A DNA stretch of 64,000 bases, taken from assembly GCF_018760365.1 (NCBI RefSeq), contig NZ_JAHIAB010000014.1, forward strand, positions 1 to 64,000. Direction: 5' to 3'. Source of the DNA: Pseudooceanicola endophyticus. GTDB lineage: Bacteria; Pseudomonadota; Alphaproteobacteria; Rhodobacterales; Rhodobacteraceae. Positions 15,492 to 39,928 of this stretch are shown here, piece by piece. Every line of letters starts with the position of its first letter. Position 1 is the first letter of the stretch. The notes beneath the pieces were generated by a model. The model had not been told where the DNA came from, ran no database searches, and saw only the letters and a program-made list of their open reading frames with translations. A program made the translations under genes and the position numbers.

Positions 15492-16451
15492 ATGCCGACA
15501 CTCAGCCACATCTTCCTGCCCAGCCTGCCCGGCGACCGGGTGCCGCTGGCGGCCCTTGGGGACAGCCACGGTGTCAGCCCCCGTGCCGCTTCGATGTATG
15601 GCCGTTTCTTCGGCCTGCAAGAGGTGGCCCTGACCCCCGCCCCGCTTACCGAGATGCTGAGCGACGTGCTGGCCCCGGCCCGGGACCGCGTGCGGGCCCA
15701 TGGCGCGGGCCCGGGCACGCTGGTCTACTGCAAGACCCAGACCCACAACACCTTCGCCGACCGGAACTGGCTGCGCGGGCTGGCCGATGCCCAGGGGATG
15801 CACGACTGGGAGGTCGCCTCCCTCTCGATGACAAGCTGCGCCTCGGCACTGGTGCAGATGCATCTGGCCGCCAGCAGCCGCTCCGGCGGACCGCTGATCG
15901 TGATGACCGGAGAGAAGGCCTTCCACCCGTGGGTGAACCGCCTGCCGGTGGGGCTGCTGGCCGAACGTCCGGCCTGTGCGGTCTTCAATGCCGGCCCCGG
16001 CGGGTGGCGTGTCTCGGGCACCGCCAGCACCCATCTGGCGCGCTTCCATGTCAATGCCGATGCCATGCCCGCCGCCGAACGTCAGGCCCTTCAGGCCATC
16101 TACGCCGAGCGCCTGGGCCAGTTCGTCGAGGACTGCCTGGAGCGCTGGCGCGACCGGATCTCGGGGCGGATGGTCTTTCTGCCCCACAACCTCAACCGTC
16201 CGGTGACCGATGCGCTGATCCGGCGCCTGGGCTGGCAGGACAACAGCTTTCACGGCGATCTCGCCCGGACCGGCCATGCCTATTGCTCGGACGGGTTCCT
16301 CAACCTCGCGGCCTTCGAGGCCGCCGGCCACACCGCCGACCAGGTGCTGCTGATGGCCGCCGGGACCGGCGTCACCTTCGCCACCTGCCTGCTGGACCGC
16401 CTGCCCGCAACCGACCCCGAAGCAACCGAGCCGACAAGGACATTCCCATGA
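15492..16451 (+). CDS. KAS III (FabH-like) condensing enzyme, first gene of the cluster
   Basis: This 319-aa protein has the thiolase fold of the FabH type. FabH enzymes condense an acyl-thioester starter with a malonyl-ACP extender; relatives transfer acyl groups to other nucleophiles. Likely catalytic residues are Cys116 in MTSCASAL, His232 in LPHNLNR (the HxxN position) and His262 in TGHAYCSDGFLNL. FabH normally has Asn at the third site (GNTSA), so the His is a departure shared with two other KAS proteins here. The start at 15492 follows CAGGAT. Its stop overlaps the ATG of the next ACP gene (ATGA), so they are translationally coupled and may act together. Confidence 0.8.
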   Translation: MPTLSHIFLPSLPGDRVPLAALGDSHGVSPRAASMYGRFFGLQEVALTPAPLTEMLSDVLAPARDRVRAHGAGPGTLVYCKTQTHNTFADRNWLRGLADAQGMHDWEVASLSMTSCASALVQMHLAASSRSGGPLIVMTGEKAFHPWVNRLPVGLLAERPACAVFNAGPGGWRVSGTASTHLARFHVNADAMPAAERQALQAIYAERLGQFVEDCLERWRDRISGRMVFLPHNLNRPVTDALIRRLGWQDNSFHGDLARTGHAYCSDGFLNLAAFEAAGHTADQVLLMAAGTGVTFATCLLDRLPATDPEATEPTRTFP

Positions 16452-16720
16452 ACGAGACCATCTCTGCCGCCATCCGCGACGCCCTGAGCGAAGTGACCGA
16501 GCGCCCCGCCGCCGCCCTGACCGCCGAGACGCGCTTTGACCGCGACTACGACCTCGACAGCTACATGTTCGTGCAGTTCCTGCTGACCCTGGAGGACAAG
16601 CTGCCCGGGCTGCGCTTTGCCCCCGAAGACATCGGCCAGGCCGATTTCAACACCGCCGGGACCCTGGCCACCCATGTCGAAGCCGCGCTGATCCGGGCCG
16701 GGGCACGCGCAGATGCTTGA
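16448..16720 (+). CDS. Acyl carrier protein 1
   Basis: This 90-aa carrier protein has the phosphopantetheine attachment site Ser38 in DYDLDSYMFVQ, matching the acidic D-S-L/Y pattern of ACPs. It should be activated by the Sfp-type transferase encoded at 39140. It overlaps the KAS III gene by four bases and the next gene by eight, so the three are tightly coupled. It would carry a growing acyl or aminoacyl chain for the adjacent condensing enzyme; the cargo is unknown. Confidence 0.85.
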   Translation: MNETISAAIRDALSEVTERPAAALTAETRFDRDYDLDSYMFVQFLLTLEDKLPGLRFAPEDIGQADFNTAGTLATHVEAALIRAGARADA

Positions 16721-17357
16721 TATCGCACGCGCTTCCTCCCTCGCGGGTGCGGTGCTGGCCATGGCCCGCGCCGCCGGCCCCGCCCCGGCGCTGGAGCTGG
16801 CCTGCGAGGGGCTGAGCGGGTGCCCGGGCTACCTTGCTCCGGGGCGTCACGCCCTTCATGCGCTGGATGCGGCGCTGGTGGATCCGGCCTGCCCCGATCA
16901 GCCGCCCGCGATCCTGAGGACCGCCACCGACCCCGCGCTGGCCGCCTTCGGGCTGCGCCTGTCGGAACTGGCCCCGTGCCCGCCGCTGGCGCCGCTGCCC
17001 GAATGTGCCCAGCTGGCCCTGGCGCTGCGGCTGGGCCTGCTGGCACGGATCCTCGACCTGGCCTTCCGCCATCTGGAAACCCGCGAGATCTTTGGCCAGC
17101 GCGCGACCCATCTGCAGCTGATCAAGGCGCGTTTCTCGGCCGGGGGCGCCTTCCTGGCCCGGATGGAAACAGAGCTGTCGCTGGGCCCCGTCGCCGCGCC
17201 CGGCCTCCTGCATGACGAGATCGACCGCCACACCATCCAGGCCGCCAAGCTGATGGGCGGGCACGGCTATCTCGAAGGCAGTTTGCACGGGCTGGAATAT
17301 TGCTCCCAGATGATCCGGGCGGTCTACGGCGCCCCCGTGCCGGAGCATCCCGCATGA
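16713..17357 (+). CDS. Acyl-CoA dehydrogenase C-terminal-domain-like protein
   Basis: At 214 aa this is about half the length of an acyl-CoA dehydrogenase. The second half matches the C-terminal helical bundle (LGLLARILDLAFRHLETREIFGQ, then IQAAKLMGGHGYLEGSLHGLEY), including the GGxGY block that contacts FAD in full enzymes. The N-terminal helical and beta domains are absent, replaced by about 90 Ala/Pro-rich residues. It may pair with the full-length dehydrogenase (38007) or the fused one (20612), or be a non-catalytic scaffold. There is no frameshift: the gene is cleanly overlapped on both sides (ATGA with the next gene), arguing for a functional short protein. Confidence 0.65.
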   Translation: MLDIARASSLAGAVLAMARAAGPAPALELACEGLSGCPGYLAPGRHALHALDAALVDPACPDQPPAILRTATDPALAAFGLRLSELAPCPPLAPLPECAQLALALRLGLLARILDLAFRHLETREIFGQRATHLQLIKARFSAGGAFLARMETELSLGPVAAPGLLHDEIDRHTIQAAKLMGGHGYLEGSLHGLEYCSQMIRAVYGAPVPEHPA

Positions 17358-17944
17358 GCATCGCCCAGAGGCCCCCGCGCGCGCCCGGTGCCGCCCTGAT
17401 GGCCGCCGGACGGCTGCCCTTCCGAGCGGACCTGCATCCGGACGAGGCCGCGCCCGAAGCCTGGCGCGCCCTGACCGCCTCCGGCCCGGAGCCCCTTGCG
17501 GTGCGTCGTGCGGGCTTTGCCGGACCCGACGGCGGCCTGCTGCCCCATGCCCCCGGGCTGCGCGGGCTCTGGGACCGGCTCCAGGCCGGGCTGGCGCCGC
17601 AGGCGCACCGTCCGCTTGGGCTGATCTACCTGCACCGGGGCCACCAGTTCGATACCGCCAGCCCGGTTCTGGCCGATCTTCTGCGGCTGATCGGCCATCG
17701 CGGCGCCGCCTGGGCGCTGCGGGCCGAAACCCCCGCGGCCCTGGCCGACGCGCTGGATCTGGCCCGCCAGATCGCCACCCTGCGCGGCCCCCTGCTGGTG
17801 CTCAGCGATCCGACACGGCGGCTGCCGGACCCCGCGCGCCCCTGCCCGGCCCTGCGTTTCCTGCTGCTGGGCCTGCCCGAAGACCATCGCCCCGCCGCCC
17901 GCCTGCCTTCCCCCTCCCGTTCCCTCGTGCAGGAGACTGCCTGA
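17354..17944 (+). CDS. Truncated KAS-like protein lacking the active-site Cys
   Basis: I first could not assign this 196-aa protein. Comparison with the KAS III encoded at 23907 shows a shared pattern: LIYLHRGHQFDTASPVLADL here against LILSHGQPLLFAPGSAPARRL there, then AETPAALADALDLA against QHNCSGLFWALDLA. The cysteine position is Pro127 (or Thr126), and the C-terminal half with the catalytic His residues is missing. It therefore looks like a solitary N-terminal thiolase half-domain without catalytic residues. A structural partner or chain-length-factor-like role is possible. Both ends overlap neighbouring genes, so it is a designed member of the operon rather than debris. Function is unknown. 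Confidence 0.55.
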   Translation: MSIAQRPPRAPGAALMAAGRLPFRADLHPDEAAPEAWRALTASGPEPLAVRRAGFAGPDGGLLPHAPGLRGLWDRLQAGLAPQAHRPLGLIYLHRGHQFDTASPVLADLLRLIGHRGAAWALRAETPAALADALDLARQIATLRGPLLVLSDPTRRLPDPARPCPALRFLLLGLPEDHRPAARLPSPSRSLVQETA

Positions 17945-19308
17945 TGTCCTCCGTCGACGCCCCGACCCTGACGCCGGCCAAGATGCCCTCGATCCCCGGG
18001 GTCCTCGGGCAGATCTTCGCCCTGGCCATTCCCTTTGCCCTGGGCGCCGCCATCACCTCGGCGCTGAACCTCGGCAAGATCGCCCTGCTGGCGCGGGCCC
18101 CCGACACCGGCGCGCTGCAGGTTCTGTCGCTGCTGCAACCCGCCTTCATCCTGATCCTGGCCATGATGGAGGCCCTGGCCATCACCAACCAGGTGTTCAG
18201 CGCCCGGTCGCGCCATGCCTGGCCGCGCCGGGGCGTGAGGCGCGCCACGCTGCGGCTGGGCGGCACCGGGATCGTGATCTTCCTGGGCGTCGCCGCCGCC
18301 GGGCAGGCGCTGGCCCTGCTCTGGCCGACGACGGACCCGACCCTGCGCACCATGCTCGACCATGCCGCGCCCTTCGTGCTTTCGATGATCCCCTTCGTAC
18401 TGTTCGACATCTGCTACGGCGCGCTGCGCGGCCAGGGCAAGGTGCTGGCCGGCCTGCTGCCCTTCGCCGCGCTGGTGGCGGTCGACCTGGCCGTCACCTG
18501 GACCCTGGTCAGCCGCTTCGGCTGGGGCTTCGAGGCGGTGCTGGCCGGCAATGTCACCGGCGCCCTGCTGATGCTGCCGGTGATCGCGCTGCTGCTCTGG
18601 CGCGCGACCCGCCATGCGGACCCGGTCCCGGACCAGCCCTTCCGGATCCGCCTGAAGCAGCTCCAGATCGGCGTCGGCCTGCCGGTTTTCAGCTCTCTCG
18701 TGGTCGGTTTCGTCAGCTCTTCGGTGATCTTCCCGCTGCTGTCGCACCTAGGTCAGGAGGGCGCCTCGGCCTTCCTCGTGGTGCTGCGCTACCGCATCGC
18801 CTTCATGATCCCCGCCATCGCCATCGGCTCGGCCATCGCGATCCTGGTCAACCAGCAGGCCGAGGCGGGCCCGCAGGCCCACCCCCGCACCGCCACCCGC
18901 TACCTTTGCTGGGGGATCGGTGCCATGCTGATCCTCTATGCCGGGGCGACGGCCCTGCTGCCGCTGTGGCCGGCCCCGCTGGACCTGCTGGTGCCGGCGC
19001 GCTCGCAAACCCTGCATGCCGCGACCGAGGGGATGTTCCGCCAGCTTCTGGTCACCTTCTTCCTGGTTGCCGCCTCGGCGATGTTCCAGGTCATCCTCGA
19101 ACAGCTGGGCCGGGGTGTTCAGGTCCTGATCATCGCCATCGTGACCGAGCTTGGCACCTGCGCCGCGCTGCTCTGGGCGATGACGCGGGGCGCCGATCAG
19201 ACGGCGGTGATCGCGGTGATGATCGGCTTTGCCGCCCTGGGCTTCGTGCTGCTGGCGGGCCAGGTCGTGGTGCTGATGCGCCGCATGGGAGGCCCCGATG
19301 CGGTCTGA
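17944..19308 (+). CDS. MATE-family efflux transporter
   Basis: This 454-aa inner-membrane protein has 12 predicted helices and the two-lobed MATE pattern. The first lobe has a FALGAAITSALNLGKIALLARA region and a GALRGQGK loop; the second has matching segments (MIPAIAIGSAIAILVNQQAEAG). MATE proteins export drugs and secondary metabolites using sodium or proton gradients. Its place inside the biosynthetic operon, sharing one base with the previous stop, suggests it exports the product or an intermediate and may give self-protection. Confidence 0.8.
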   Translation: MSSVDAPTLTPAKMPSIPGVLGQIFALAIPFALGAAITSALNLGKIALLARAPDTGALQVLSLLQPAFILILAMMEALAITNQVFSARSRHAWPRRGVRRATLRLGGTGIVIFLGVAAAGQALALLWPTTDPTLRTMLDHAAPFVLSMIPFVLFDICYGALRGQGKVLAGLLPFAALVAVDLAVTWTLVSRFGWGFEAVLAGNVTGALLMLPVIALLLWRATRHADPVPDQPFRIRLKQLQIGVGLPVFSSLVVGFVSSSVIFPLLSHLGQEGASAFLVVLRYRIAFMIPAIAIGSAIAILVNQQAEAGPQAHPRTATRYLCWGIGAMLILYAGATALLPLWPAPLDLLVPARSQTLHAATEGMFRQLLVTFFLVAASAMFQVILEQLGRGVQVLIIAIVTELGTCAALLWAMTRGADQTAVIAVMIGFAALGFVLLAGQVVVLMRRMGGPDAV

Positions 19309-19350
19309 GCGCACCCGCCGCCCCCCGGTCCGCCCCCCGGAGGCCGGACC

Positions 19351-20292
19351 ATGCTGAGGATCCTCGATATGGCCCTGGCCTATCCCGCCCGCGAACAGCG
19401 CCTCTCCGAGCTGGAGACAGAGCTGGCGCTGTCGCGCAATCAGATGCGCATGTACGACCGCTTCTTCGGCTTCGACCGCTTTCGCTGCGACCCCGGCGAA
19501 CCCCTGGCCCGTCTGACCGACCGGGCCGCCCGCGAGGTCCTGGCACGCAACCCCGGTCAGGATGACCGCCTGTCGCATGTCCTGCATTGCCACACGCTGA
19601 TGAACACCGCCGTCGCGGGGGGCGAAACCTCGGACGTGCTGGGCGGGTTCCGCGACCGCGGCCTCGAGGTGTTCAGCGCCACGATGAACCACTGCGCCAC
19701 CGGCGTTTCCATGCTGGGGATGCTCTCGCACCTGCTGGATGAGGGCCAGGCGGCCCTGATCCTGATCGGCGAAAAGGCCTTCCACCCGGCGATCCGGGTG
19801 ATCGAGAACACCACCATCATGGGAGAGGCCGCCGCCGCGATCCTTGTGGCCCAGGAACCTGCCCGACCGGCCCGCGGCAGCTACGAGGTGCTGGGCACCC
19901 ATGTGCTGCATGAAACCAGCTTCTGGAAGAACACCGGCCTGCGCGGAGAGCCCTATCTGGAGGGGTTCGACACGATCTACCAGGATTTTGCCTGCGCCGG
20001 CATCGCCCGGGCGCTGCAACGTTTCGGACGCGAGGCCGGGCAGATCCGCATGGTCATGCCGCACAATGTCAACCTGCCGTCGTGGTTCCACATCGCCAGC
20101 GCCACCGGTCTGAGCCGCGCGCAGATCCAGCTTTCGACGATTGCGCGCTACGGCCACTGCTTCGGCGCCGATCCCTTCATCAACCTTGCCGAGACAGCCG
20201 CCAGCGGCGCGCTCGATCCCGGCGACCAGGTCCTGCTGTACAGCATCGGGCTGGGGGCCACGGCCTCCTGTGCGCTGCTGCAGGTGAACTGA
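19351..20292 (+). CDS. KAS III (FabH-like) condensing enzyme
   Basis: This 313-aa thiolase-fold enzyme is a paralogue of the 15492 product; both share MYxRFFG near residue 35-40 and GEKAFHP in the middle. Catalytic candidates are Cys115 in TMNHCATG, His238 in MPHNVNL and His269 in YGHCFGADPFINL, again with His where FabH has Asn. An acidic GEAAAAILV segment matches the dimer/cap region. The ribosome binding site GGAGG (19339-19343) lies in the loop of a GGTCCG/CGGACC hairpin (19327-19350), which may temper translation. Substrate unknown; probably loads or extends the ACP encoded next. Confidence 0.8.
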   Translation: MLRILDMALAYPAREQRLSELETELALSRNQMRMYDRFFGFDRFRCDPGEPLARLTDRAAREVLARNPGQDDRLSHVLHCHTLMNTAVAGGETSDVLGGFRDRGLEVFSATMNHCATGVSMLGMLSHLLDEGQAALILIGEKAFHPAIRVIENTTIMGEAAAAILVAQEPARPARGSYEVLGTHVLHETSFWKNTGLRGEPYLEGFDTIYQDFACAGIARALQRFGREAGQIRMVMPHNVNLPSWFHIASATGLSRAQIQLSTIARYGHCFGADPFINLAETAASGALDPGDQVLLYSIGLGATASCALLQVN

Positions 20293-20327: not shown

Positions 20328-20609
20328 ATGCCCCCCGACATTTCCCCCATTCTGGACAGCCTGCGCGACATCGGGCTTGGCCCGCAACGACTGGAGCGCG
20401 CCCGTCAGGACTGCGTGCTTTTCGGCCCCGGCGGGCTGCTGAACTCCATCGAGCTGGTGCAGTTCATCGCCAGCCTGAGCGAGCAGAGCGGCATCGACGC
20501 CTTCGAGTTCATGGAAGGGTTCCAGCCGGGCACCGAGGGGATCCTCAGTTCCGTGGGCCGGCTGCAGGCCTTCCTGGCCGAACGCGCGCCGCAGGCAAGG
20601 GCAAGCTGA
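20328..20609 (+). CDS. Acyl carrier protein 2
   Basis: This 93-aa carrier protein has the likely phosphopantetheine serine Ser40 in GLLNSIELVQFI, a close variant of the DSLxLV site, followed by acidic helix III residues. The start at 20328 follows CAGGAG. It sits between a KAS III gene and the decarboxylase-dehydrogenase fusion, two bases ahead of the latter, so its cargo is probably the substrate or product of both. Confidence 0.8.
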   Translation: MPPDISPILDSLRDIGLGPQRLERARQDCVLFGPGGLLNSIELVQFIASLSEQSGIDAFEFMEGFQPGTEGILSSVGRLQAFLAERAPQARAS

Positions 20610-20611
20610 CC

Positions 20612-23056
20612 ATGGATGGCACCTTCGATCTCGCGGCGCAGCAGCCGGACCTGGCCGGGCGGATGGCCCGGGCCGCCGGGCTTTTCGGCACGCCCTTCTA
20701 CCTTTACGACGGCGATGCGCTGCGCGCCCGCGTCGCGCAGCTCCGCACGGCCCTGCCCGGGGTGGCGTTCTTCTATTCCCTCAAGGCCAATCCCAACCTC
20801 TCTGTCGTGTCCCGCCTGATCGCCGCCGGGGCCGGCGCCGAGGTCTGCTCAAGGCTGGAACTGGAAACCGCGCTGGCTGCCGGGGCCCCGCCGGACCGCA
20901 TCCTGATGGTCGGCCCGGCCAAGTCTGCGGACGAACTGGCCCGCGCGGTCGATCTGGGCATCGCCGCCATCGTGGCGGATTCCCTTGATGAACTGGAAGA
21001 GATCGACGCCCTGGCCCGGGCGCGCGGCACCGTCCAGCCCGTCGCCCTGCGGATCAATCCCGATTTCAGCGCGACGGGCGCCCGCCTGTCGATGGGCGGG
21101 CGGGCCACCCAGTTCGGGCTGGACCAGCCGCTGCTGCCCGATACCCTGACCGCCCTGCGGGCGCTGCCGGGCCTGCGCCTTGCGGGGCTGCATGTCTACA
21201 TGGGCACCCGGATCCTGTCGCCCGAGGTGATCGCCGCCAATACCCGCCAGATCCTTGCGCTGGCCGATGAGATGCTGGCGGACGGGCCGCTCGATTTCGT
21301 CGATGTCGGCGGCGGTTTCGGCGTGGCCTATCACGAGGGCGAGGTGCCGCTGGATCTGGCAGCCGTGGCGGGGGCGCTGAACCCGATGATCCGGGCCTTC
21401 CGGGCGCGCCATCCCGGCACCCGCGTCGCCATCGAGCTGGGCCGCTACATGGTGGCCGAGGCCGGTATCTTCGTCACCCGCATCCGCCGCAACAAGCGGA
21501 CCAAGGGCGAGCAGTTCGCGATCTGCGACGGCGGCTCGAACCTTCATGCGGCGGCGGCCGGCCAGGGCTTCATGCGCCGGAACTTCCCCATCAGCCTGCA
21601 TGATGCGGAGGGCCAGCCGCGCGCCGGCACCCCCGAACGCTGGAGCGCCACCGGCCCGCTTTGCACCCCGATGGATGTCATCGCCTCGGGGATCGAGCTG
21701 CCCGCGCCGCGCCCCGATGACCTGCTGTGCCTGCACCATTCGGGCGCTTACGGGCCCAGTGCCTCTCCCACGGACTTCCTGGGTTTCGGCGCCCCCGCCG
21801 AGGTCATTGCCGATGGCGACCGGCTGAGCCTGGCCAGCCCGGCCCCGCGCTGGCAGGAGCGGCTTTCGCGACAGCAGCCCCTTTCCGCGCCGCCTTCCGC
21901 CGCGCCCCTTGTGCTGCCCGCGCCCTTCGATCACCCGGCGCTGGCGCGGCTGGACGGGCTGCGGGCGCTGTTCGAGCGCACCGGAGCCCGGCTGGAGGAG
22001 GATCCCGCGGCCTGCGCGGACCTCTGGCAAGAGCCGCTGGTCCGGGCGCTGACCACGATCGGCGTGCCCGAGGCCTTCAACGGTTTCCCGCTGTCGCAGA
22101 CGCCCCTCGGGCTGAGCGAGTGCCCCTATCCGCTTCATGTGGCGATGATCGAGCGGCTGGCGCGGATGGACGCAAGTTGCATCCTGGCGCTTCAGGGCCC
22201 CTCGCTTTCCGGCGGGGCCGTGCTGGCCATGGGCACCCCCGACCAGCAGGCGCGCTTCTTCGCCCCCTGGCGCGACGGGCCGCAGGGCACCTTCTTCGCC
22301 GTCACCGAGCCCGAGGTGGGCTCCGATGCCTCGGCCGGGCGCACCCGCATCGACACCGACTCCGAGGGCCGCATGTGGCTGAGCGGAGAGAAGATGCTGG
22401 TGGGCAACATCGCCCGGTCCTCGGTCGGGCTGGTCTTTGCCCATCATGCCGGTTCGCGCCGGGCGGCGCTGGTCCTGCTGGAGATGGACCGCCTGGCGCG
22501 GGAGATCCAGAACGGCCAGCTCGGGATCGCGCGCCTGCCCACCAACGGGCTGCGCGGCGCCGATTTGGCGCGGATCACCATGGAACGCCTGCCGATCGAT
22601 CCCGGGATGATCCTGGGCGATGGCAGTACCGCCACGCTGCGCGACGGCTTCATGGCGATCAACGGCGTGTTCGAGCGCAACCGCCCGGTGGTGGCGGCAC
22701 TCGCGCTTGGCAACGGTCGGGGCATTCTGGACCGGCTGGCCATCGCCGGGGCCACCGGCTTTGCCGATCTGGAACGGCGTCACCTGGCGCTGCTGCACCG
22801 GCTGGCCGGGGTGCTGGAGGATTATGCCGAAGGCCGCCCCCGTGCCCATCGCATCAGCCAGATCAAGCTGCAGGCGGTCGCCTTCTCGGATGCGCTGGCC
22901 GCGCGCATTCCCGCCCGGGCGCCGCAGGCGCTGCTGGCGGATCCGCTGCTGCGCCGCAAAATGCGCGATGCCCGGGCCTTCGAATACATGGAGGGAACCT
23001 CAAGCATCCACCTACTGAACGCCTTCCGGGCCTTTGCCGCGCAGGTGCCGGCATGA
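20612..23056 (+). CDS. Fusion: PLP fold-III decarboxylase + acyl-CoA dehydrogenase
   Basis: This single uninterrupted 814-aa protein has two enzymes. Residues 20-410 are an alanine-racemase-fold, LysA-like decarboxylase. It has the PLP lysine Lys58 in FYSLKANPN, a phosphate loop GGGFGVAY (233-240), ELGR (275-278), the catalytic Cys351 in GPLCTPMD, and Tyr380 in HHSGAYG. Residues about 438-814 are a full acyl-CoA dehydrogenase, with a FAVTEPEVGSD flavin/substrate block and a C-terminal EYMEGTSSIHLLN carrying the usual catalytic Glu (Glu794). A Pro/Ala-rich linker joins them. LysA-like enzymes such as BtrK decarboxylate an amino acid bound to a carrier protein. The fusion suggests decarboxylation then alpha,beta-oxidation of the same aminoacyl-ACP; that sequence is inference. 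It is coupled (ATGA) to the next gene. Confidence 0.85.
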   Translation: MDGTFDLAAQQPDLAGRMARAAGLFGTPFYLYDGDALRARVAQLRTALPGVAFFYSLKANPNLSVVSRLIAAGAGAEVCSRLELETALAAGAPPDRILMVGPAKSADELARAVDLGIAAIVADSLDELEEIDALARARGTVQPVALRINPDFSATGARLSMGGRATQFGLDQPLLPDTLTALRALPGLRLAGLHVYMGTRILSPEVIAANTRQILALADEMLADGPLDFVDVGGGFGVAYHEGEVPLDLAAVAGALNPMIRAFRARHPGTRVAIELGRYMVAEAGIFVTRIRRNKRTKGEQFAICDGGSNLHAAAAGQGFMRRNFPISLHDAEGQPRAGTPERWSATGPLCTPMDVIASGIELPAPRPDDLLCLHHSGAYGPSASPTDFLGFGAPAEVIADGDRLSLASPAPRWQERLSRQQPLSAPPSAAPLVLPAPFDHPALARLDGLRALFERTGARLEEDPAACADLWQEPLVRALTTIGVPEAFNGFPLSQTPLGLSECPYPLHVAMIERLARMDASCILALQGPSLSGGAVLAMGTPDQQARFFAPWRDGPQGTFFAVTEPEVGSDASAGRTRIDTDSEGRMWLSGEKMLVGNIARSSVGLVFAHHAGSRRAALVLLEMDRLAREIQNGQLGIARLPTNGLRGADLARITMERLPIDPGMILGDGSTATLRDGFMAINGVFERNRPVVAALALGNGRGILDRLAIAGATGFADLERRHLALLHRLAGVLEDYAEGRPRAHRISQIKLQAVAFSDALAARIPARAPQALLADPLLRRKMRDARAFEYMEGTSSIHLLNAFRAFAAQVPA

Positions 23057-26438: not shown

Positions 26439-26753
26439 ATGGAAACCGCCGTTCACCCCGCCCTGCCCGCCACCGCCACGCCCCGGATCGCCCGGATGCA
26501 ATCCCTCGTCATCGCCGCCCTGGTCGAGCTGCTCGACATGGAGGACGACAGCCAGGTCGGGCCCGACACCCGCCTGGAAGAGGACCTTGGCATCGACAGC
26601 GGCCTGCTGCTGGAACTGTTCATGATGATCGAGGAGCAGCAGCCCGAGATCCGCATCGACCCGGCCAACCTGCGCCCCGAGCATTTCACCAATGTCGCCA
26701 GCTTCGCCGCCATGATCGCCGGAACGCTGCAACCGGAACAGGCCCGCGCATGA
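26439..26753 (+). CDS. Acyl carrier protein 3
   Basis: This 104-aa protein has a clear carrier-protein site: Ser54 in EDLGIDSGLLLEL, preceded by the DTRLEEDLGID signature. It has a 20-residue N-terminal extension not usual for ACPs. It lies between two adenylating enzymes and overlaps the second by four bases (ATGA), so it is probably loaded by one or both. The start at 26439 is weakly marked (AAAGGAC). Confidence 0.85.
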   Translation: METAVHPALPATATPRIARMQSLVIAALVELLDMEDDSQVGPDTRLEEDLGIDSGLLLELFMMIEEQQPEIRIDPANLRPEHFTNVASFAAMIAGTLQPEQARA

Positions 26754-31343: not shown

Positions 31344-31416
31344 GTCGCAGATGGGCCAAGCCCCGGGACACAGTGCCTTCAGCCCGGGCAGCCCAGGCCC
31401 AGCAAAGGGAATCGCC

Positions 31417-32539: not shown

Positions 32540-33247
32540 ATGGACACCATCCACACCGATATCGAGCTTGCCTCGGTCAGCAAGAGCTATCCCCTGGGCC
32601 GCAGCCGCGTGCCGATCTTCGAGGATCTGACCCTGCACATTCCCACCGGCGATTTCCTGGCCATCATGGGGCCCTCGGGGTCGGGCAAGTCGACGATCCT
32701 GAACCTGATCGGCGGCATCGATCAGGCCGATGCCGGAACCATCTCCATCGGCGGCACCGCCCTTGGGCGGATGGGAGAGCGCGCGCTGACCCGCTGGCGC
32801 GCCCGCAACATCGGCTTCGTCTTCCAGTTCTACAACCTGATGCCCCGCCTGAGTGCGGCCGAGAATGTCGAGCTGCCGCTGCTGCTGACCCCGCTGTCGG
32901 CCCGGGAGCGGCGGGAACGGGTGCTCACGATCCTCGACATCGTCGGGCTGTCGGACCGCGCCCGCCACCTGCCATCGGAGCTTTCGGGCGGCCAGCAGCA
33001 GCGCATCGGCATCGCCCGCGCCGTCGCCAGCGATCCCCGCATCCTGCTTTGCGACGAGCCCACGGGCGATCTGGACCGCAAATCCGCGAACGAGATCCTG
33101 GACCTGCTTCAGATGCTCAACCGCGAGCTTGGCAAGACCATCGTGATGGTCACCCATGACGACAGCGCCACCCGCGTCGCCCGGCGCACGCTGCTGCTCG
33201 ACAAGGGGCGTTTCGTCGCCCGGCAGGAGATGCCGGCATGCGCCTGA
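32540..33247 (+). CDS. ABC exporter ATPase, MacB/LolD type
   Basis: This 235-aa ATPase has Walker A GPSGSGKST, signature LSGGQQQR, Walker B ILLCDEPTGDLD and switch His in VTHD. The DEPTGDLD form and length are typical of ATPases that serve FtsX-like permeases (LolD, MacB). It lies four bases after the adaptor stop and overlaps the first permease by ten bases, so all four exporter genes are coordinately translated. It should power export or extraction of the cluster product at the inner membrane. Confidence 0.9.
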   Translation: MDTIHTDIELASVSKSYPLGRSRVPIFEDLTLHIPTGDFLAIMGPSGSGKSTILNLIGGIDQADAGTISIGGTALGRMGERALTRWRARNIGFVFQFYNLMPRLSAAENVELPLLLTPLSARERRERVLTILDIVGLSDRARHLPSELSGGQQQRIGIARAVASDPRILLCDEPTGDLDRKSANEILDLLQMLNRELGKTIVMVTHDDSATRVARRTLLLDKGRFVARQEMPACA

Positions 33248-34398
33248 CCCCCTCCATGCTGCTGCGCCAGAACCTGACGCGCAACCTGACGCGCTCGGTC
33301 CTGATGATCCTGTGCATCGGCACGGCCTTCTTCCTTTTCGGGCTGCTGTCGAGCTTCCGCGCCGGTTTCGAGGGCAGCGAGGCGCGGGCCGACCGGCTGG
33401 TCGTCAGTTCCAAGGTGGGTGGCAACGAAACGCTGCCGCTGGCCTATCTTCAGGATCTCAAGGCGATGCCCGGCGTGGCGGCGGTGACCCATATCACCCG
33501 GCTGCGCGCCTATCGCAGCGCCGATCCGCGCGACATCCTTGGCGCCAATGCGGTCGATCCCGAAAGCTATGCCCGCGTCTATGCCGACACCTACCGCTTC
33601 ACCCCGGCGCTGATGCAGGCGCTGGCCGACAACCGTACCGGCGTTCTGGTGGGCCGCTCCCTGGCCGAGCGCGAGGGCTGGAAGACCGGCGATCGCATCT
33701 CGCTCACCAGTTTCGTGCATCCGAATGCCCAGGGCATGAGCTGGGGCTTTTCGGTGGCCGGCATCTTCGACGGCGCGGAGCCCACGGTGGACACCAATTT
33801 CCTGCTGCTGCGTTCGGACTATTTCAACACCGCCCTGGTGCGCGGCAAGGACCAGGTGAACCTGTTCGGCATCCTGCCCGCCCCCGGCACCGATCCCGAT
33901 GCGCTGATCCAGCGGATCGACCAGCGCTTTGCCAATTCCTCGGCCCAGACCCGCACCCAGAGCGAGACCGCCTACATGGGCGCCTTCCTCGAGCAGTTCG
34001 CCGATATCTCGACCATCGTGCAGCTGGTCTCGGCGGTGGCCTTCGCGACGATCCTGCTGATCACCGCCAACACGATGATCTTCGCGATCCGCGAACGCAC
34101 GCGAGAGATCGGCGTGCTGAAGGTTCTGGGCTTTGCCGGGCCCGCCGTCATGGGGCTGGTGCTGGCCGAGACGCTGGTACTGTTCTTGCTCGGGCTCGCG
34201 CTTGGGCTGGGGGCCACCGCCGCGGTGCTGCCACTGCTGGGCGGGGCGCTCTCCAGCATCGTGCCCGAGCTTTACCTGACACCGCGCGCGGTCGCCTCTG
34301 CCGTGGTCATCGCCGCCGTTCTGGCCCTGCTGACCGCCGCCGGGCCCGCCCTCAAAGCCCTGCGCCTGCCCGTCGCTTCCGCCCTGAAACAGAGGTGA
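33238..34398 (+). CDS. ABC exporter permease 1 (FtsX/MacB-type)
   Basis: This 386-aa protein has an N-terminal membrane helix (VLMILCIGTAFFLFGLL), a periplasmic domain of about 220 residues (MacB periplasmic-core-like) and three C-terminal helices (FtsX domain, about 255-375) with ERTREIGVLKVLGF, the coupling segment seen in FtsX permeases. It is followed four bases later by a second, different permease, giving a heterodimeric transporter of the LolCE/DevC type rather than a fused MacB. Confidence 0.85.
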   Translation: MRLTPSMLLRQNLTRNLTRSVLMILCIGTAFFLFGLLSSFRAGFEGSEARADRLVVSSKVGGNETLPLAYLQDLKAMPGVAAVTHITRLRAYRSADPRDILGANAVDPESYARVYADTYRFTPALMQALADNRTGVLVGRSLAEREGWKTGDRISLTSFVHPNAQGMSWGFSVAGIFDGAEPTVDTNFLLLRSDYFNTALVRGKDQVNLFGILPAPGTDPDALIQRIDQRFANSSAQTRTQSETAYMGAFLEQFADISTIVQLVSAVAFATILLITANTMIFAIRERTREIGVLKVLGFAGPAVMGLVLAETLVLFLLGLALGLGATAAVLPLLGGALSSIVPELYLTPRAVASAVVIAAVLALLTAAGPALKALRLPVASALKQR

Positions 34399-34402: not shown

Positions 34403-35608
34403 ATGCCCCTCCCGATGACCAGCTTCCTTCGCCAGACCCTGGCCCTGACCCGCTCCAACCTGCGCTCACTGCCCCGGCGCACCGGCATCGCCGCCTCCAT
34501 GGTGCTGTCGGTGGCACTGGTGGTGATCGTTCTGCTGGCCTTCCTGTCGATGGCCCAGGGCTTTCGCAGGACGCTGCAATCCACCGGCGCGCAGGACATC
34601 GCGGTGGTCACCAGCCGGGGGGCCTTCTCGGAAAGCACCAGCCGGCTGTCCACCCGCCAGATCCACATGCTGGAGGCCGCCCCCGGCCTGGCCCGCAAGG
34701 CCGATGGCCGCGCGCTGACCTCGGAGGAATTGCTGGTGCCGGTCGATGCGATCCGTACCAGTGACGGCCAGACCGCCACCCTGTCGATGCGCGGCGTGGC
34801 CCCGGGCGGCATGGCGCTGCACGAGGGGCTGACGCTTTCGCAGGGGCACATGTTCACCCCCGGCAGCGCCGAGATCATCGTCGGCGACCGGCTTGCGGGG
34901 CGTTACCGCGATCTCGGCATCGGCCAGCACATCTCGTTCGGGCATTCGACCTGGACGGTGGTCGGGCATTTCAGCGCCGGTGGCAGCGCCTTCGAGTCCG
35001 AGATCATGGCCGATGCGGGCACCGTGCAGGCCATGTTCGACCGCCCCGGAGATATCCAGAGCATGCGCGCCAAGCTGACCTCGGCCGCCGCCTTCCCCGC
35101 CTTCCGCGACTATGTGGAAACCACCCTCGACATGGGCCTTTCGGCCCGGACCGAGAAGGACTTCTTCGCCGCACAGGCCGGAAATGTCAGCCGGATCATC
35201 CTGTTCCTTGGCTGGCCGCTGGCGGTAATCATGGCCTTCGGCGCCGCCGTCGGCGCGATGACCACGATGCTGAGCTCGGTCTCGGACCGGCTGACCGAGA
35301 TCGCCACGGTGCGCGCCCTGGGCTATGCGCGCGGTCCGGTCTTCCTGGCGACGCTGGCGGAATCGCTGATGCTGACGCTGGTCGGCTGCGCTCTGGGCAG
35401 CGCGCTGGCCTGGGCCTGCCTGAACGGCTTCGGCGCCAGCACCCGCGGCGCCGGCAACACCCAGCTGGCCTTCCAGCTGACCTTCTCGGGGATGATCGTG
35501 GGTCAGGCCGTGGTGCTGGCGCTGCTGATCGGCGTTGCCGGCGGCGGGCTGCCGGCGCTGCGTGCCACCCGCATCCCGCTGCGCATCGCCATGTCGGGCC
35601 GGGGCTGA
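34403..35608 (+). CDS. ABC exporter permease 2 (FtsX/MacB-type)
   Basis: This 401-aa FtsX-type permease has an N-terminal helix (MVLSVALVVIVLLAFLSMA), a large periplasmic domain and three C-terminal helices with the coupling stretch DRLTEIATVRALGYARG. It pairs with permease 1 and the ATPase. The start at 34403 follows GAGGTGAG. The FAD oxidoreductase gene begins three bases after its stop, so export and tailoring genes share one transcript. Confidence 0.85.
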   Translation: MPLPMTSFLRQTLALTRSNLRSLPRRTGIAASMVLSVALVVIVLLAFLSMAQGFRRTLQSTGAQDIAVVTSRGAFSESTSRLSTRQIHMLEAAPGLARKADGRALTSEELLVPVDAIRTSDGQTATLSMRGVAPGGMALHEGLTLSQGHMFTPGSAEIIVGDRLAGRYRDLGIGQHISFGHSTWTVVGHFSAGGSAFESEIMADAGTVQAMFDRPGDIQSMRAKLTSAAAFPAFRDYVETTLDMGLSARTEKDFFAAQAGNVSRIILFLGWPLAVIMAFGAAVGAMTTMLSSVSDRLTEIATVRALGYARGPVFLATLAESLMLTLVGCALGSALAWACLNGFGASTRGAGNTQLAFQLTFSGMIVGQAVVLALLIGVAGGGLPALRATRIPLRIAMSGRG

Positions 35609-35611
35609 GCG

Positions 35612-36958
35612 GTGGCCGGGCGCCTCATCCCCCATCGCGACGCCGCCGCGCCGAAGCCGCAGGCCCTGCGCCATGCCATCGTCATCGGCGCGGGCATTGC
35701 CGGGTTGACGGCGGCCCGTGCCCTGGCGCGGCACATGGACCGGGTGACGCTGATCGAGACCGACCGCCTGGGCAGCGGCGCCGAACCGCGCCGCCGGGTG
35801 CCCCAGGCCGGCCATGTGCACGCGCTGCTTGATGCCGGACGCCAGGCGCTGGAAGCACTGTTCCCCGGCCTGGAGGAGACCGCGCAGGAGCAGGGCGCCG
35901 TGCTGCTGCCGGTCCGTTCGCGCTGGCGCAGCCATGACGGCCACGACTGGAGCGCCCCGCAGGACACCGGGCCCAAGGTGTTGTCGCAAAGCCGTCCGGC
36001 GCTGGAAGCGCTGCTGCGGGCGCGGGTACGGGCCCTGCCGGGCCTCGTGCTGCAGGAGGGCCGCGTTGAGGGTCTGGTCGCCGGGACCTGCCCGCCCGGC
36101 CATGCCCCCCGGATCACCGGCGTCCGGCTGAGTGGCGGCGCCCGGATCGCGGCCGATCTGGTCATCGATGCCACCGGGCGGGCCGGTCGCGGTGCCGACT
36201 GGCTGGCTGCCGCCGGCTTCGACCGGCCCCCCGAAACCCGAAGCGCCCCCCGGGTACGCTATGCCAGCACCCTTTTCACCCGCGCGGACAGGCTGCCCTC
36301 GGCCTGGCTGAAACTGGCCAGCCCGCCGCAGACCCGCGGCGCCGTGCTGGCCCCGATCGAGGGCGGGCGCTGGATCTTCACCCTGACCGACCGGTTCGGC
36401 GCTGCCATGCCCGGGGACGAAGCCGGCCTGCGGGCCGCCATCCTGGCGCTTGGCGACGGGCGCATCGCGGCGCTGCTCTCGTCCGAACGCCTGCTGGCGC
36501 CGATCCGGCATTTCCACATCGACACCGTGCGGCTGCGTGGCTTCGACAGCTGCCCGCCGCCATCGGGCTTCCTGCCCCTGGGCGATGCCATCGCAACCTA
36601 CAATCCCCTGCACGCCCAGGGCATGACCGCCGCGATCCTGCAGGCCAGCGCACTGGAGGAGGCCCTGGCAGGCGATGCGCGCGATGCCATGACCCTGCGG
36701 GAGCGCTACCTGCCCCGTGCCATGGGCATCGCCCGCGCCGCCTGGCGCATCGGCCTGGCGATGGACCTGACCTGGCCGCAGTTCTCGGGTCCCGCCGATC
36801 CCCAGGCCGAGGCGCTGGCCCGCAGCCTGCGCGCCGCCTTCGCCGCCTCGCTCCTGCGACCGCAACTCTGCCCCCCGATCGACCGCCTGCTGCATCTCAA
36901 CGACCTGGAGCTTGCCCCGGAGTTGCACTCCGGTCTCAGGCCCCCGGCGCTTTCCTGA
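35612..36958 (+). CDS. FAD-dependent oxidoreductase/monooxygenase
   Basis: This 448-aa flavoprotein has a Rossmann FAD motif GAGIAGLTAA (26-35), a VPQAGHVHALL block near residue 70 and an IDATGR segment near 190. GFLPLGDAIATYNPLHAQGM near residue 325 is the GD motif binding the FAD ribityl phosphate. The VPQ-HVHALL form is characteristic of a subgroup of FAD monooxygenase-like/reductase enzymes of the geranylgeranyl-reductase clan. It may oxidise, reduce or hydroxylate the cluster product; the reaction is not assignable. It uses a GTG start at 35612, three bases after the permease stop. Confidence 0.8.
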   Translation: MAGRLIPHRDAAAPKPQALRHAIVIGAGIAGLTAARALARHMDRVTLIETDRLGSGAEPRRRVPQAGHVHALLDAGRQALEALFPGLEETAQEQGAVLLPVRSRWRSHDGHDWSAPQDTGPKVLSQSRPALEALLRARVRALPGLVLQEGRVEGLVAGTCPPGHAPRITGVRLSGGARIAADLVIDATGRAGRGADWLAAAGFDRPPETRSAPRVRYASTLFTRADRLPSAWLKLASPPQTRGAVLAPIEGGRWIFTLTDRFGAAMPGDEAGLRAAILALGDGRIAALLSSERLLAPIRHFHIDTVRLRGFDSCPPPSGFLPLGDAIATYNPLHAQGMTAAILQASALEEALAGDARDAMTLRERYLPRAMGIARAAWRIGLAMDLTWPQFSGPADPQAEALARSLRAAFAASLLRPQLCPPIDRLLHLNDLELAPELHSGLRPPALS

Positions 36959-36973
36959 CCCCCGGAGACCGCG

Positions 36974-37996
36974 ATGAACCTCTACACCACCGCCCCCGCC
37001 TCGACCCGCTTCCAGCCCGGCAGCTACCTGGGCGCGGTCCGCGACCTGGCCCGCTGGAGCGAGGCCGCAGGGCTCGACGGTATGCTCATCTACACCGACA
37101 ACAGCCTGGCCGATCCCTGGTGCGTGGCCCAGACGGTCCTGGAAGGCACCCGGAATTTCCGACCGCTGATCGCGGTGCAGCCGCTCTACATGTCGCCCCT
37201 CGCCGCCGCGCGCAAAATCTCGAGCCTGGCGTTCCTTTACGGGCGCCGGGTCGCGCTCAACATGGTGTCGGGGGGCTTTTCCCGCGATCTTGAGCAGCTG
37301 GGCGACACGGCGGATCACGACACCCGTTACGACCGTCTGGTGGAATATACCCAGCTTCTGCAGGCGCTGCTGCGCGGCGGGCCCGTGACCTTCCAGGGCC
37401 GCTGGTACGCGGTGACGAACCTGACCCTGTCGCCGGCCCTACCCGAGGCGCTGATGCCGGAAATCTTCGTCTCGGGCGCTTCCGAGGCCTGTCAGGCGGC
37501 GGCCGTCAGCCTTGGCGCCACCCGGTTCAGCTATACCAGCCCCCCCGCCGATCTGGCGCGCCGGGCCCCGCTGCCCGGCGCCGGACGGCTGGGCCTGCGC
37601 GCCGGCATCATTGCCCGGGAGGACAGCCGCAGCGCCTGGACAGCGGCGCTGACCCGTTTTCCCGAAGACAAGCGCGGCCAGATGGCCCACCGCCTGGCCC
37701 GGCTGAAAAGCCAGTCCCGCTGGCATCGCGACATCTCGGAGCTGGCCGAGGCCCTGCCCGAAGCCCGTGACGGCGCCTACTGGCTGAACCCGATCCGCAA
37801 TTACCGGACCTTCTGTCCCTATTTCGTCGGCAGCCATGGCGAAGTGGCCGATCTGATCTGCGGCTACGACCAGCTGGGCTACACCACGCTGATCCTCGAC
37901 GTGCCCGAAAGCCGCGCCGACCTGGAAGAGGCGGTGCGCGCCGTCCGCCTGGCCCGGACCCTTCCCACCGGGCGCCTTGCCCTGCCCCAGGCCTGA
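36974..37996 (+). CDS. LLM-class (luciferase-like) flavin-dependent monooxygenase
   Basis: This 340-aa TIM-barrel flavin enzyme belongs to the bacterial-luciferase/SsuD superfamily. Evidence is the barrel entry (SEAAGLDGMLIYTDN), the LNMVSGGFSRDLEQLGDTADHD segment typical of SsuD-like enzymes, and the RYDRLVEYTQLLQALL helix. Such proteins use reduced FMN for monooxygenation or N-/C-oxidation and need a flavin reductase, not seen here. Start after CGGAG. It lies between two other redox tailoring genes. Confidence 0.8.
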   Translation: MNLYTTAPASTRFQPGSYLGAVRDLARWSEAAGLDGMLIYTDNSLADPWCVAQTVLEGTRNFRPLIAVQPLYMSPLAAARKISSLAFLYGRRVALNMVSGGFSRDLEQLGDTADHDTRYDRLVEYTQLLQALLRGGPVTFQGRWYAVTNLTLSPALPEALMPEIFVSGASEACQAAAVSLGATRFSYTSPPADLARRAPLPGAGRLGLRAGIIAREDSRSAWTAALTRFPEDKRGQMAHRLARLKSQSRWHRDISELAEALPEARDGAYWLNPIRNYRTFCPYFVGSHGEVADLICGYDQLGYTTLILDVPESRADLEEAVRAVRLARTLPTGRLALPQA

Positions 37997-38006
37997 AAGA
38001 ACCGCG

Positions 38007-39143
38007 ATGTTCCACACCACACTCTTCACCCCCGCCCACGAGGCCCTCAGGGAAGAGGTCTCGGCCTTCCTCGAGGCCGAGATCCTGCCCCACCATGCGG
38101 CGTGGGCCGCCGCCGGCGCCATCCCCCGGGAGGCCTGGCACATGGCCGGGCGCGCCGGGCTGCTGTGCCGAACCCTGCCGCGCGAGATGGGCGGCCACGG
38201 TGGCAGCTTCCTCGAGTCCGTCGTCATCATCGAAGAGCTGGCGCGGTTGCGCATCTCGGGCCTGCTGACCTGCCTGCAAAGCGATATCGTCGCCCCCTTC
38301 CTGCACCGGCTCGGCACCCGCGCCCAGCAGCAGGCCTGGCTGCCGGGCTTTGCCTCCGGCGCGGTGCTGGGGGCTGTCGCGCTGAGCGAACCCCAGGGCG
38401 GCAGCGACCTGGCCGGCCTCCGGACCACCGCCACCCGCCACGGCGAGGGTCTGGTGCTGGACGGGCGCAAGGCCCATATCTCCAACGGCTCGCAGGCCGA
38501 CCTGATGATCGTCGCCGCCCGCCGCCCCGGCGCGGGAGGCGAAAAGGCCATCAGCCTGGTCCTGGTCGAGGCCGAGCGCCCCGGTGTGACCCGCCGCGCG
38601 ATCCCCAAATCCGCCATGCCGGCGCTGAACACCGCCGAGATCGACCTGGACGGCTGCCTGGTGCCTGCCGCAAACCTGTTGGGCGCCGAGGGCACGGGAT
38701 TTCTCTACCTGATGACCTTCCTCGGCATGGAGCGGCTGGTGCTGGCGATCTATGCCCAGGCCTCGAGCGAGCGGATCCTGCGCGAGCTGATCGGCGATTG
38801 CGACGCCCGCGCCCTGCTGGAACACCAGAATACCCGTTTCTCGCTGGCGGATCTCTATGCCGACTGTGCGGTCAACCGCGCCTATCTGGACGGCTGCATC
38901 CGCGCCGCCGATGCCGGGCGCCCCGATCCCAAGGCCGCCTGCGTGGCCAAGCTGAGGACCACAAACACCCTGCGCCAGGCCGCCGCCCTGGGGGTGCAGT
39001 TCCGCGGCGCCGCCGGGATCAGCGGGGCGAGCGGGCAGCGGGCCACGCAGGACATGCTCGACAGTGCGGTGCAGTCGATCTGGGGCGGCACCAGCGAGGT
39101 GATGCGCGACGTCATTGGCCGCAGCCTGGGCAGCGTGCTGTGA
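38007..39143 (+). CDS. Acyl-CoA dehydrogenase family protein
   Basis: This full-length 378-aa acyl-CoA dehydrogenase has an N-terminal helical domain, a mid beta-domain with the flavin/substrate signature GAVALSEPQGGSDLAGL (about 120-136), and a C-terminal bundle ending in IWGGTSEVMRDVIGR. In cluster context it probably desaturates an acyl- or aminoacyl-ACP, as pyrrole-forming dehydrogenases do with prolyl carrier proteins. The GGTSE form of the last motif, without Glu at the MCAD position, is common in the FadE-type branch. It overlaps the transferase start by four bases (GTGA). Confidence 0.85.
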   Translation: MFHTTLFTPAHEALREEVSAFLEAEILPHHAAWAAAGAIPREAWHMAGRAGLLCRTLPREMGGHGGSFLESVVIIEELARLRISGLLTCLQSDIVAPFLHRLGTRAQQQAWLPGFASGAVLGAVALSEPQGGSDLAGLRTTATRHGEGLVLDGRKAHISNGSQADLMIVAARRPGAGGEKAISLVLVEAERPGVTRRAIPKSAMPALNTAEIDLDGCLVPAANLLGAEGTGFLYLMTFLGMERLVLAIYAQASSERILRELIGDCDARALLEHQNTRFSLADLYADCAVNRAYLDGCIRAADAGRPDPKAACVAKLRTTNTLRQAAALGVQFRGAAGISGASGQRATQDMLDSAVQSIWGGTSEVMRDVIGRSLGSVL

Positions 39144-39928
39144 CCGGAGCCGCCACCCCGCCTGTCGATGTGGAGATCTGGGGGGCCGAGGCGCCGGAAC
39201 GGCCCTGTGCCCTGAGCGATCGGCCCGGTCTGCTGTCAGCGGAGGAAGAGGCCCGCGCCGCCGCCCTGTCGGGCCGGGCCGCCCAGTGCTTTCGCCGCAC
39301 CCGGGGCCTGCTGCGGCACGCCCTGGCCCGGCGCCTGGCCGAGCTGCTGCCCGCGGACTTCCCTCCGGGCTTCCCGCCGGGCCGGATTCCCTTCGCCACC
39401 GGGCCCCATGGGCGCCCCGAACTGGCCGGCCCCGCCCGCCGCTCGGGGCTGCACTTCAACCTCAGCCATTCCGGCGACCGGGGCGTCATCGCGCTCTGTA
39501 CCGGGGCCGAGCCCGGCATCGACCTGGAACAGCTGCGCCCCCGCGCCGGGGCCCGCGCCGTGCTGCGCCGGCTGATGGCCCCGCAAGAGGCCGCGCATCT
39601 GCTGCCCCAGGACGGCCCCGCCTTCGAGGAGGGCTTTCACCGGCTCTGGGTCTGCAAGGAGGCGGTGATCAAGGCCACCGGAGAGGGGCTGAGCCGGTCG
39701 CTGGCCTCTTTCGTCGTCGATCCGGACCTGCCACGCCTGTTGCACGCCCCGCCGGGCCACTGGCACCTGGCCTGGCTGCCCGCCCCCCGGGGTTATCGCT
39801 GCGCCCTCGCGCTGCGCCGGGAACACCCCTTTGCGCCGGCCGGGATACGCATCCGTTTCCCCAGTGCGACAAAGGTCCAAGCGATTGAGACAAAAGACCT
39901 CCTAAATGGAACAGAATGTTGTGTATAG
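39140..39928 (+). CDS. Sfp-type 4'-phosphopantetheinyl transferase
   Basis: This 262-aa enzyme is predicted to attach phosphopantetheine from CoA to the serine of the cluster's three carrier proteins. Conserved blocks are FNLSHSGDRGVIAL, GIDLEQLRPR (Mg-binding Asp/Glu) and FHRLWVCKEAVIKATGEGL (the W-x-KE-x-x-K motif). The start is GTG at 39140, overlapping the dehydrogenase stop. The final 25 residues run into an AT-richer tail that is not part of the fold. Its presence supports dedicated carrier-protein chemistry in the cluster. Confidence 0.9.
   Translation: MTGAATPPVDVEIWGAEAPERPCALSDRPGLLSAEEEARAAALSGRAAQCFRRTRGLLRHALARRLAELLPADFPPGFPPGRIPFATGPHGRPELAGPARRSGLHFNLSHSGDRGVIALCTGAEPGIDLEQLRPRAGARAVLRRLMAPQEAAHLLPQDGPAFEEGFHRLWVCKEAVIKATGEGLSRSLASFVVDPDLPRLLHAPPGHWHLAWLPAPRGYRCALALRREHPFAPAGIRIRFPSATKVQAIETKDLLNGTECCV

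Follow-up and report, generated by a model that had tools for sequence, protein, structure and literature searches.

A variant of the Dickeya vfm locus predicted in Pseudooceanicola endophyticus

Introduction

Pseudooceanicola endophyticus carries a long run of biosynthetic genes that raises two questions: what kind of molecule the run makes, and whether it belongs to a class of loci that has already been described. We analyzed a 64,000-nucleotide stretch of the genome (contig NZ_JAHIAB010000014.1, positions 1 to 64,000; hereafter the window). Gene calling reproduced the set put forward in an original prediction made from the sequence: 23 genes at 15492–39928, all on the + strand and with frequent overlaps of 1–25 bases; their GC content at third codon positions (GC3) is 0.84–0.93. 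The prediction saw in them one conserved, unrecognised cluster in which amino acids are activated on stand-alone carrier proteins and joined by proteins of the β-ketoacyl-acyl carrier protein synthase III (KAS III) type into a small nitrogenous product. The comparisons reported here indicate that 15492–39928 is almost certainly a vfm-type biosynthetic locus, a known kind that is present here as a variant outside Dickeya. The activation of amino acids on stand-alone carriers and the presence of KAS III-type proteins hold up, and a small nitrogenous product is the natural inference; the cluster is, however, not unrecognised.

In the passages cited here, the virulence factor modulating (vfm) locus is described as that of Vfm quorum sensing in the plant pathogen Dickeya (PMC9306890), is called Dickeya-specific (PMC8860905; PMC13395407, July 2026), and specifies a signal that has resisted isolation (PMC13395407). 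We found no report of vfm outside Dickeya in the open-licence literature.

The cluster shares most of its genes with the Dickeya vfm locus

A plasmid search with the fusion protein encoded at 20612–23056 returned similar clusters in Tritonibacter mobilis, Gemmobacter fulvus, Rhizobium sp. and Agrobacterium vitis; the Rahnella cluster it also returned is related. The ligase encoded at 24899–26410 has a match at E 1e-80 in 12 of the 343 genomes of Rahnella's family, the Rahnella genome itself counted. Three of these 12 (G608, G497 and G682) were identified as Dickeya-type by exact published 10-residue codes of VfmO and VfmP together with the RWIWR motif of VfmE. The VfmO/VfmP codes are DAYVICTVAK/DMMFFAACVK in G608 (group I) and DVYVICTVAK/DLMFAGCCMK in both G497 and G682 (group IV), and each genome encodes an AraC protein, 187 residues long, in which RWIWR lies at residue 89, the published motif being Arg89–Arg93. 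Gene calling gave 26 genes for the G497 locus, which equals the published count; they run Y K L M N O P Q R S T U V W X, J I H G F, E, D C B Z A. Gene order and the published marks, rather than an annotated Dickeya record, supplied the letters, which are otherwise inferred. The gene caller truncated VfmP and overlooked VfmG in G608, where tblastn recovers VfmP in full.

Fourteen window genes match 15 of these vfm genes (A, B, C, F, J, K, M, N, O, P, T, U, V, W and Z). The first block encodes a VfmA-like KAS III (15492–16451; 33–35% identity), a VfmZ-like acyl carrier protein with a DSY motif (16448–16720; 45–46%, PF00550), a half-length acyl-CoA-dehydrogenase-like protein related to VfmB (16752–17357; 39–40% over 95 residues), a protein that is VfmS-like through shared relatives (17354–17944), and a VfmC-like exporter of the MATE type (17944–19308; 35–37%). 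The second block consists of a VfmT-like KAS III (19351–20292; 38–39%), a small carrier-like protein with an NSI motif and a weaker likeness to VfmY (20328–20609; E 2e-4, 41% over 44 residues), the 20612 fusion of a BtrK-type pyridoxal phosphate (PLP) decarboxylase (VfmK, 50–51%) with an acyl-CoA dehydrogenase (VfmU, 36–37%), a VfmV-like protein (23053–23910; 39%), and a VfmW-like KAS III (23913–24923; 40–43%). In the third block, the trio of stand-alone adenylation proteins related to VfmM (24899–26410; 47–48%), VfmO (26750–28285; 43–45%) and VfmP (29676–31211; 43–44%) is adjacent to a VfmN-like carrier protein (26439–26753; 31–33%, PF00550), with a P450-like protein (28330–29679) inserted between O and P. 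Exporter genes follow, among them one for a VfmF-like ABC ATPase (32540–33247; 42% within a widespread family), and the cluster ends with a VfmJ-like 4'-phosphopantetheinyl transferase (39170–39928; 36–38% over about 110 residues). All are encoded on the + strand.

The window order thus reads A Z B S C, T Y K-U V W, M N O (P450-like) P, exporter, J, and the sub-blocks A-Z-B-C, U-V-W and M-N-O-P are common to the window and Dickeya. Among the window genes, D, E, H, I, Q, X and a separate L have no match at E 1e-3. Conversely, the window adds the P450-like protein, luciferase-like monooxygenase (LLM) and flavin adenine dinucleotide (FAD) enzymes, a membrane fusion protein and a membrane AraC regulator.

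The predicted inventory was borne out. Family scans found the three AMP-forming enzymes, the phosphopantetheinyl transferase, the two flavin enzymes and two of the three carriers, the third (20328) having no Pfam or NCBIfam match and being recognized by its aligned Ser and its VfmY likeness; as predicted, no ketoreductase, acyltransferase or thioesterase was matched among the 25 window proteins scanned. The three dehydrogenase-type proteins are 38007–39143 as a whole, with a distant relation to VfmR and VfmU, the C-terminal half of 20612, and 16752, which corresponds to a C-terminal half alone (profile E 3.8e-4). Two exporters had been named; the exporter parts were found (membrane fusion protein, ABC ATPase and permeases), and the MATE match is weak (NCBIfam E 2.1e-7; Pfam E 2.2).

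The codes of the two amino-acid-activating proteins provide a finer comparison. The code of 26750, DVFVLCTVAK, agrees with vfmO3 at 9 of 10 positions and with each of four vfmP variants at 2 of 10; that of 29676, DMLFFGACMK, agrees with vfmP4 at 9 of 10 and with each of three vfmO variants at 2 of 10. The two window codes agree with each other at 2 of 10 positions, and neither is identical to any published variant. In Table 1 of PMC9306890, vfmO3 and vfmP4 are the D. poaceiphila codes. Given the 9-of-10 agreement, 26750 and 29676 probably select substrates identical or similar to the ones used by that Dickeya group. The VfmP code of one relative, G414, is unlike every published variant.

The claim that the cluster matches nothing known therefore fails: a described locus holds most of the same genes with conserved sub-blocks, although neither the overall order nor a known product goes with them. 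An entirely new class of pathway, with no kinship to loci already described, could draw on the several cluster proteins without any Pfam or NCBIfam match, but it is already contradicted by the orthology with vfm and the near-identical codes and is highly improbable. Aryl polyene, prodiginine and butirosin clusters differ in gene content and were dropped as whole-cluster matches.

Overall, a vfm-locus variant that makes and exports a Vfm-like small molecule derived from amino acids, by a mechanism of the kind proposed below, is very likely the best explanation of the window. Several observations weigh against it. The block order is rearranged overall relative to Dickeya; VfmI, VfmH, VfmE and VfmD are unmatched in the window, and VfmD-like matches elsewhere in its genome are weak (1.2e-6); two ABC permeases are present, with E 8e-4 at best against VfmG. 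The oxidative enzymes without a Dickeya counterpart suggest that the product probably differs from that of Dickeya. The locus is also patchily distributed: a VfmT-type match at 1e-10 occurs in 6 of 394 genomes of the window's family, its own included, and the one same-genus genome listed among the 394 (G192) has none at this threshold. Finally, counts of a motif shared by the intergenic regions of the cluster were not clearly above those in shuffled controls.

KAS III and KAS-like proteins

All three KAS III enzymes predicted to bear a catalytic Cys were recovered, 15492 and 19351 by PF08541 and 23913 by PF08545 below the cut-off, with the Cys aligned in each. The Asn position of the Cys-His-Asn triad is occupied by His, resulting in a Cys-His-His set unlike that of FabH. 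All 42 VfmT-like and all 36 VfmW-like rows that score 120 bits or more have this set (some species counted twice), as do 12 of 21 VfmA-like rows, the other nine having lost the His; a looser cut added two second copies (G457 and G517) with Tyr at the His position. Counts here and below are of rows, not of independent events, and the rows include several species or strains twice (Tritonibacter L019/L028, Pseudomonas GM50 L126-127/L040, Xenophilus L125/L037, G010/L036 and Rahnella L023/G722/L042).

The two proteins described as Cys-less and KAS-like fared differently. The AlphaFold model of 23053 (predicted local distance difference test (pLDDT) 95.2) matches FabH-type enzymes in Foldseek (E 1.3e-12), and a Cys near the catalytic place is not conserved in its family. 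The 17354 model (pLDDT 81.5) resembles the thiolase fold weakly and over part of its extent, with 5.3e-4 as the best E. Profile-profile comparison showed no relation of either protein to KAS III (hhalign probability 3.4 for 23053 and 0.3 for 17354). The V gene directly precedes the W gene in 36 of 36 rows, which suggests that proteins of the 23053 and 23913 types form a heterodimer. That KAS III proteins carry out the joining steps of Vfm-type pathways is our guess.

A candidate aspartate-derived unit

Ligase 24899 is VinN-like in its pocket: it is closest to chains 3wv4/3wvn (E 7e-20, against 6e-7 for the chain that follows), which we take to be VinN and which carry D, S and R at the spacing of D230, S299 and R331 of that enzyme. 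These VinN residues are given in the part of PMC7756342 cited here. The corresponding residues of the ligase are D205, T273 and R305. The D/T/R set is found in 38 of 38 homologs, those of the window and the Dickeya-type genomes included. The D and R positions are thus shared with the VinN/VinL/VinO system of vicenistatin, and Ser299 is replaced by Thr; vicenistatin is made with a modular polyketide synthase, which the window lacks. The decarboxylase half of 20612 is closer to BtrK (3.6e-75) than to the best diaminopimelate decarboxylase (6.5e-45) among sequences in the Protein Data Bank. Of the 40 loci or genomes in which a K-type protein was called, 14 have it fused to U (L030, whose K is cut by a contig end, counted as unfused), and in G316, where the gene caller missed it, K and U read as a single tblastn match; the fusion extends through much of the alphaproteobacterial branch, with the exception of A. 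vitis, G010/L036 and L038. This fusion ties decarboxylation to desaturation.

The closest chemical precedent is the bolagladin pathway, where BolO (VinN-like), BolC, BolN (BtrK-like), KAS III proteins and the acyl-CoA dehydrogenase BolQ are assigned to dehydro-beta-alanine; deletion of bolN abolished production and deletion of bolQ gave the beta-alanine form (cited part of PMC7756342). By description, the two systems share a VinN-like ligase, a free carrier, a BtrK-like decarboxylase, an acyl-CoA dehydrogenase and KAS III proteins; they differ in that bolagladin involves a modular nonribosomal peptide synthetase and a fatty acid, whereas the decarboxylase and the dehydrogenase form one protein here. 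Together, the VinN-like pocket, the BtrK-like decarboxylase, this precedent and the K-U fusion point to an aspartate-derived beta-alanyl and then dehydro-beta-alanyl unit bound to a carrier, and by this analogy we consider it somewhat more probable than not that the product contains a beta-amino unit of the aspartate type. We infer that the corresponding steps in Dickeya would be those of VfmM, VfmN, VfmK and VfmU. Two points count against this assignment: with the pocket Ser replaced by Thr, glutamate or another diacid may be the substrate, and the bolagladin joining step is itself a proposal in PMC7756342.

Use of glutamate, in a butirosin-like conversion of gamma-glutamyl to gamma-aminobutyryl units, would accord with the fact that BtrK, to which the decarboxylase half is closest among solved proteins, is a glutamyl-carrier protein decarboxylase. 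We nevertheless regard it as unlikely. The ligase pocket is of the VinN (aspartate) type, and the fused dehydrogenase fits the beta-alanine case of bolagladin. BtrJ is an ATP-grasp ligase, whereas family scans of the window proteins returned no ATP-grasp match and the carrier-loading ligase there is AMP-forming.

We propose the following route. Phosphopantetheinyl transferase 39170 would arm the carriers. Ligase 24899 would activate aspartate, or a closely similar amino diacid, by adenylation at its side-chain (beta) carboxyl and load it onto carrier 26439. The PLP half of 20612 would decarboxylate the bound unit to a beta-alanyl thioester, which the dehydrogenase half would desaturate, probably after N-acylation, to a dehydro-beta-alanyl enamide. 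Two further amino acids would be loaded by 26750 and 29676, and the pieces joined by 15492, 19351 and the adjacent pair 23053/23913. Tailoring by the flavin enzymes and the 38007 and 16752 dehydrogenases would precede export by the MATE and ABC systems. The assignment of the VinN-like, BtrK-like and dehydrogenase steps amounts to a concrete chemical prediction for part of the Vfm molecule.

A P450-like protein without the heme ligand

The protein encoded at 28330–29679 has the P450 family signature, in agreement with its earlier description, and carries Arg at the position of the heme-ligating Cys. None of the 26 Dickeya vfm proteins matches it. Of 25 family rows, 11 have lost the Cys, all of them belonging to Rhodobacterales, Rhizobium or Mesorhizobium, and 14 keep it (Rahnella, Pseudomonas, A. 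vitis, G457, G517 and G316). The Rhizobium plasmid locus L021 carries two Cys-less P450-fold copies.

Loss of this Cys, together with the lack of the alpha/beta hydrolase VfmD, which is present in the Tritonibacter, Gemmobacter, Rhizobium and A. vitis clusters and in G302 and G075, might be read as decay of a non-functional copy. Such decay is scarcely credible: all 23 frames are open with strong codon bias, the loss is common to the 11 rows, and the catalytic and carrier residues are intact.

Regulation and signalling

No AraC master regulator of the VfmE type with RWIWR was found in the window; a membrane-embedded AraC protein is encoded there instead (40044–41210, + strand). Its gene lies beside other alphaproteobacterial clusters as well and was left out of the original prediction, whose limits for the biosynthetic genes otherwise hold. 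A simple hydropathy scan of nine rows, drawn from seven genomes or loci, gave five to eight hydrophobic segments, some overlapping, for the AraC regulators beside alphaproteobacterial clusters: five in the window protein and six to eight in its relatives. Tritonibacter and G316 also have such a regulator next to the cluster. Homologs of VfmH, VfmI, VfmG and VfmX are found in the vfm-like loci of Rahnella-like G722 (L104-L105) and Pseudomonas sp. GM50 (L126-L127/L040), and in G457 and G517 (L100-L103), so that in these loci, outside the genomes identified as Dickeya-type, the sensing half is present too.

Whether the product serves as a signal in this organism is, on this evidence, evenly balanced. 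That the membrane AraC protein would sense the product or a related cue, and so switch the locus, has slightly less in its favour. A vfm-related pathway may also yield an antibiotic, a siderophore or another effector, with the AraC protein sensing a nutritional or stress cue, a possibility of appreciable weight that we rate below both. The sensing half of Vfm (I, H and E) is not in the window, the P450-like, LLM and FAD enzymes are additional, the exporter is of the membrane fusion protein-ABC type, and bolagladins, chemically the closest precedent, may function as siderophores (PMC7756342, in the part cited). Yet the VfmO and VfmP codes are near-identical to those of signal-making Dickeya, the membrane AraC gene adjoins several alphaproteobacterial clusters, and no TonB receptor was matched among the 25 proteins scanned.

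A broader hypothesis, which as a whole we hold to be doubtful, is that Vfm, instead of being peculiar to Dickeya, is a branch of a signalling pathway widespread in Proteobacteria. In its molecule, KAS III pairs would have linked two amino acids to a dehydro-beta-alanine (enamide) unit derived from aspartate, a one-component membrane AraC receptor would replace VfmI/VfmH in Alphaproteobacteria, and the P450 without heme ligand would be a structural partner. The swap of sensing modules and the Cys-less P450 pose questions in their own right. Separately, the window's genome contains a marginal LuxI-family match (G000:C12:481225-481443, L137; 24.8 bits against a cut-off of 24).

Distribution of vfm-like loci

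A VfmT-type alignment retrieved 57 loci from named genomes. The hit stands in a string with six or more window families in 20 loci, every one from Proteobacteria (L027-L044, L064 and L076); three actinobacterial loci (L050, L051 and L052) have six or seven families at lower identity, and the other 34 have fewer. The vfm-like strings extend to Rhizobium, Mesorhizobium, A. vitis, Xenophilus, Rahnella and Pseudomonas. The cluster genes stay together in the relatives examined rather than being scattered, in keeping with the linkage that had been predicted. In G316 the gene caller missed most of the cluster, which tblastn recovers in order. The vfm-like loci of Rhodobacterales, Rhizobiales, Xenophilus, Rahnella and Pseudomonas point to other candidate producers in which to seek the Vfm molecule.

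In a five-protein tree (31 taxa, 1922 columns), the window lies among Rhodobacterales near Yoonia maritima and G302, a grouping with a support of only 0.26, and Dickeya lies with Rahnella/Pseudomonas, G457/G517 and Xenophilus. The tree took in 31 of 34 candidates; L036, G316 and L048 were dropped for having fewer than four of the five proteins. The host family also contains Defluviimonas- and Gemmobacter-type bacteria.

At the insertion site, the flanking MFS gene has relatives of 55–56% identity in all three genomes tried, and the flanking LysR gene has none at 1e-40. Of four repC hits in the genome, none is on the window's contig, and megablast of the cluster against plasmids gave fragments only.

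Parts of the system also occur elsewhere. Some actinobacterial loci (L045-L063 and others) combine a VfmT-like KAS III with a BtrK-like decarboxylase, a dehydrogenase and a ligase, and perhaps make other products containing the beta-amino unit. VfmM-like ligases with the D/T/R pocket are encoded in L047 and L072 (Legionellales/Legionella metagenome-assembled genomes), where the loci also hold a VfmT-like KAS III. A VfmM-like ligase is also found on plasmids of Sinorhizobium meliloti and Mesorhizobium (records H48-H60); it occurs among 76 plasmid records of Sinorhizobium and, in those listed, is about 50% identical across two thirds of the query's length. In the plasmid cluster of Rhizobium sp., the VfmP-like gene (L021:4107-5614) is annotated and matched as two pieces.

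Other genes of the cluster and its surroundings

The remaining cluster genes, all on the + strand, lie between VfmP and VfmJ. The exporter includes an HlyD/RND-type membrane fusion protein (31351–32535), whose start was set at 31351 in place of the later start chosen by the gene caller (31579), and two FtsX/MacB-type permeases (33238–34398, with the faint VfmG likeness, and 34403–35608). These are followed by a FAD-dependent oxidoreductase/monooxygenase-like protein (35612–36958) and the LLM-type flavin monooxygenase (36974–37996). Beyond the membrane AraC gene, 41347–41913 (+ strand) encodes a possible accessory secreted protein, a relative of which (27% identity) adjoins the AraC gene in L038; VfmX was considered for it and rejected (profile comparison probability 0.1). 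Farther downstream, genes at 43546–48499 for two TctC-like binding proteins, TctB/TctA-like membrane proteins and a hydrolase, recognized by eye, look like an unrelated uptake locus.

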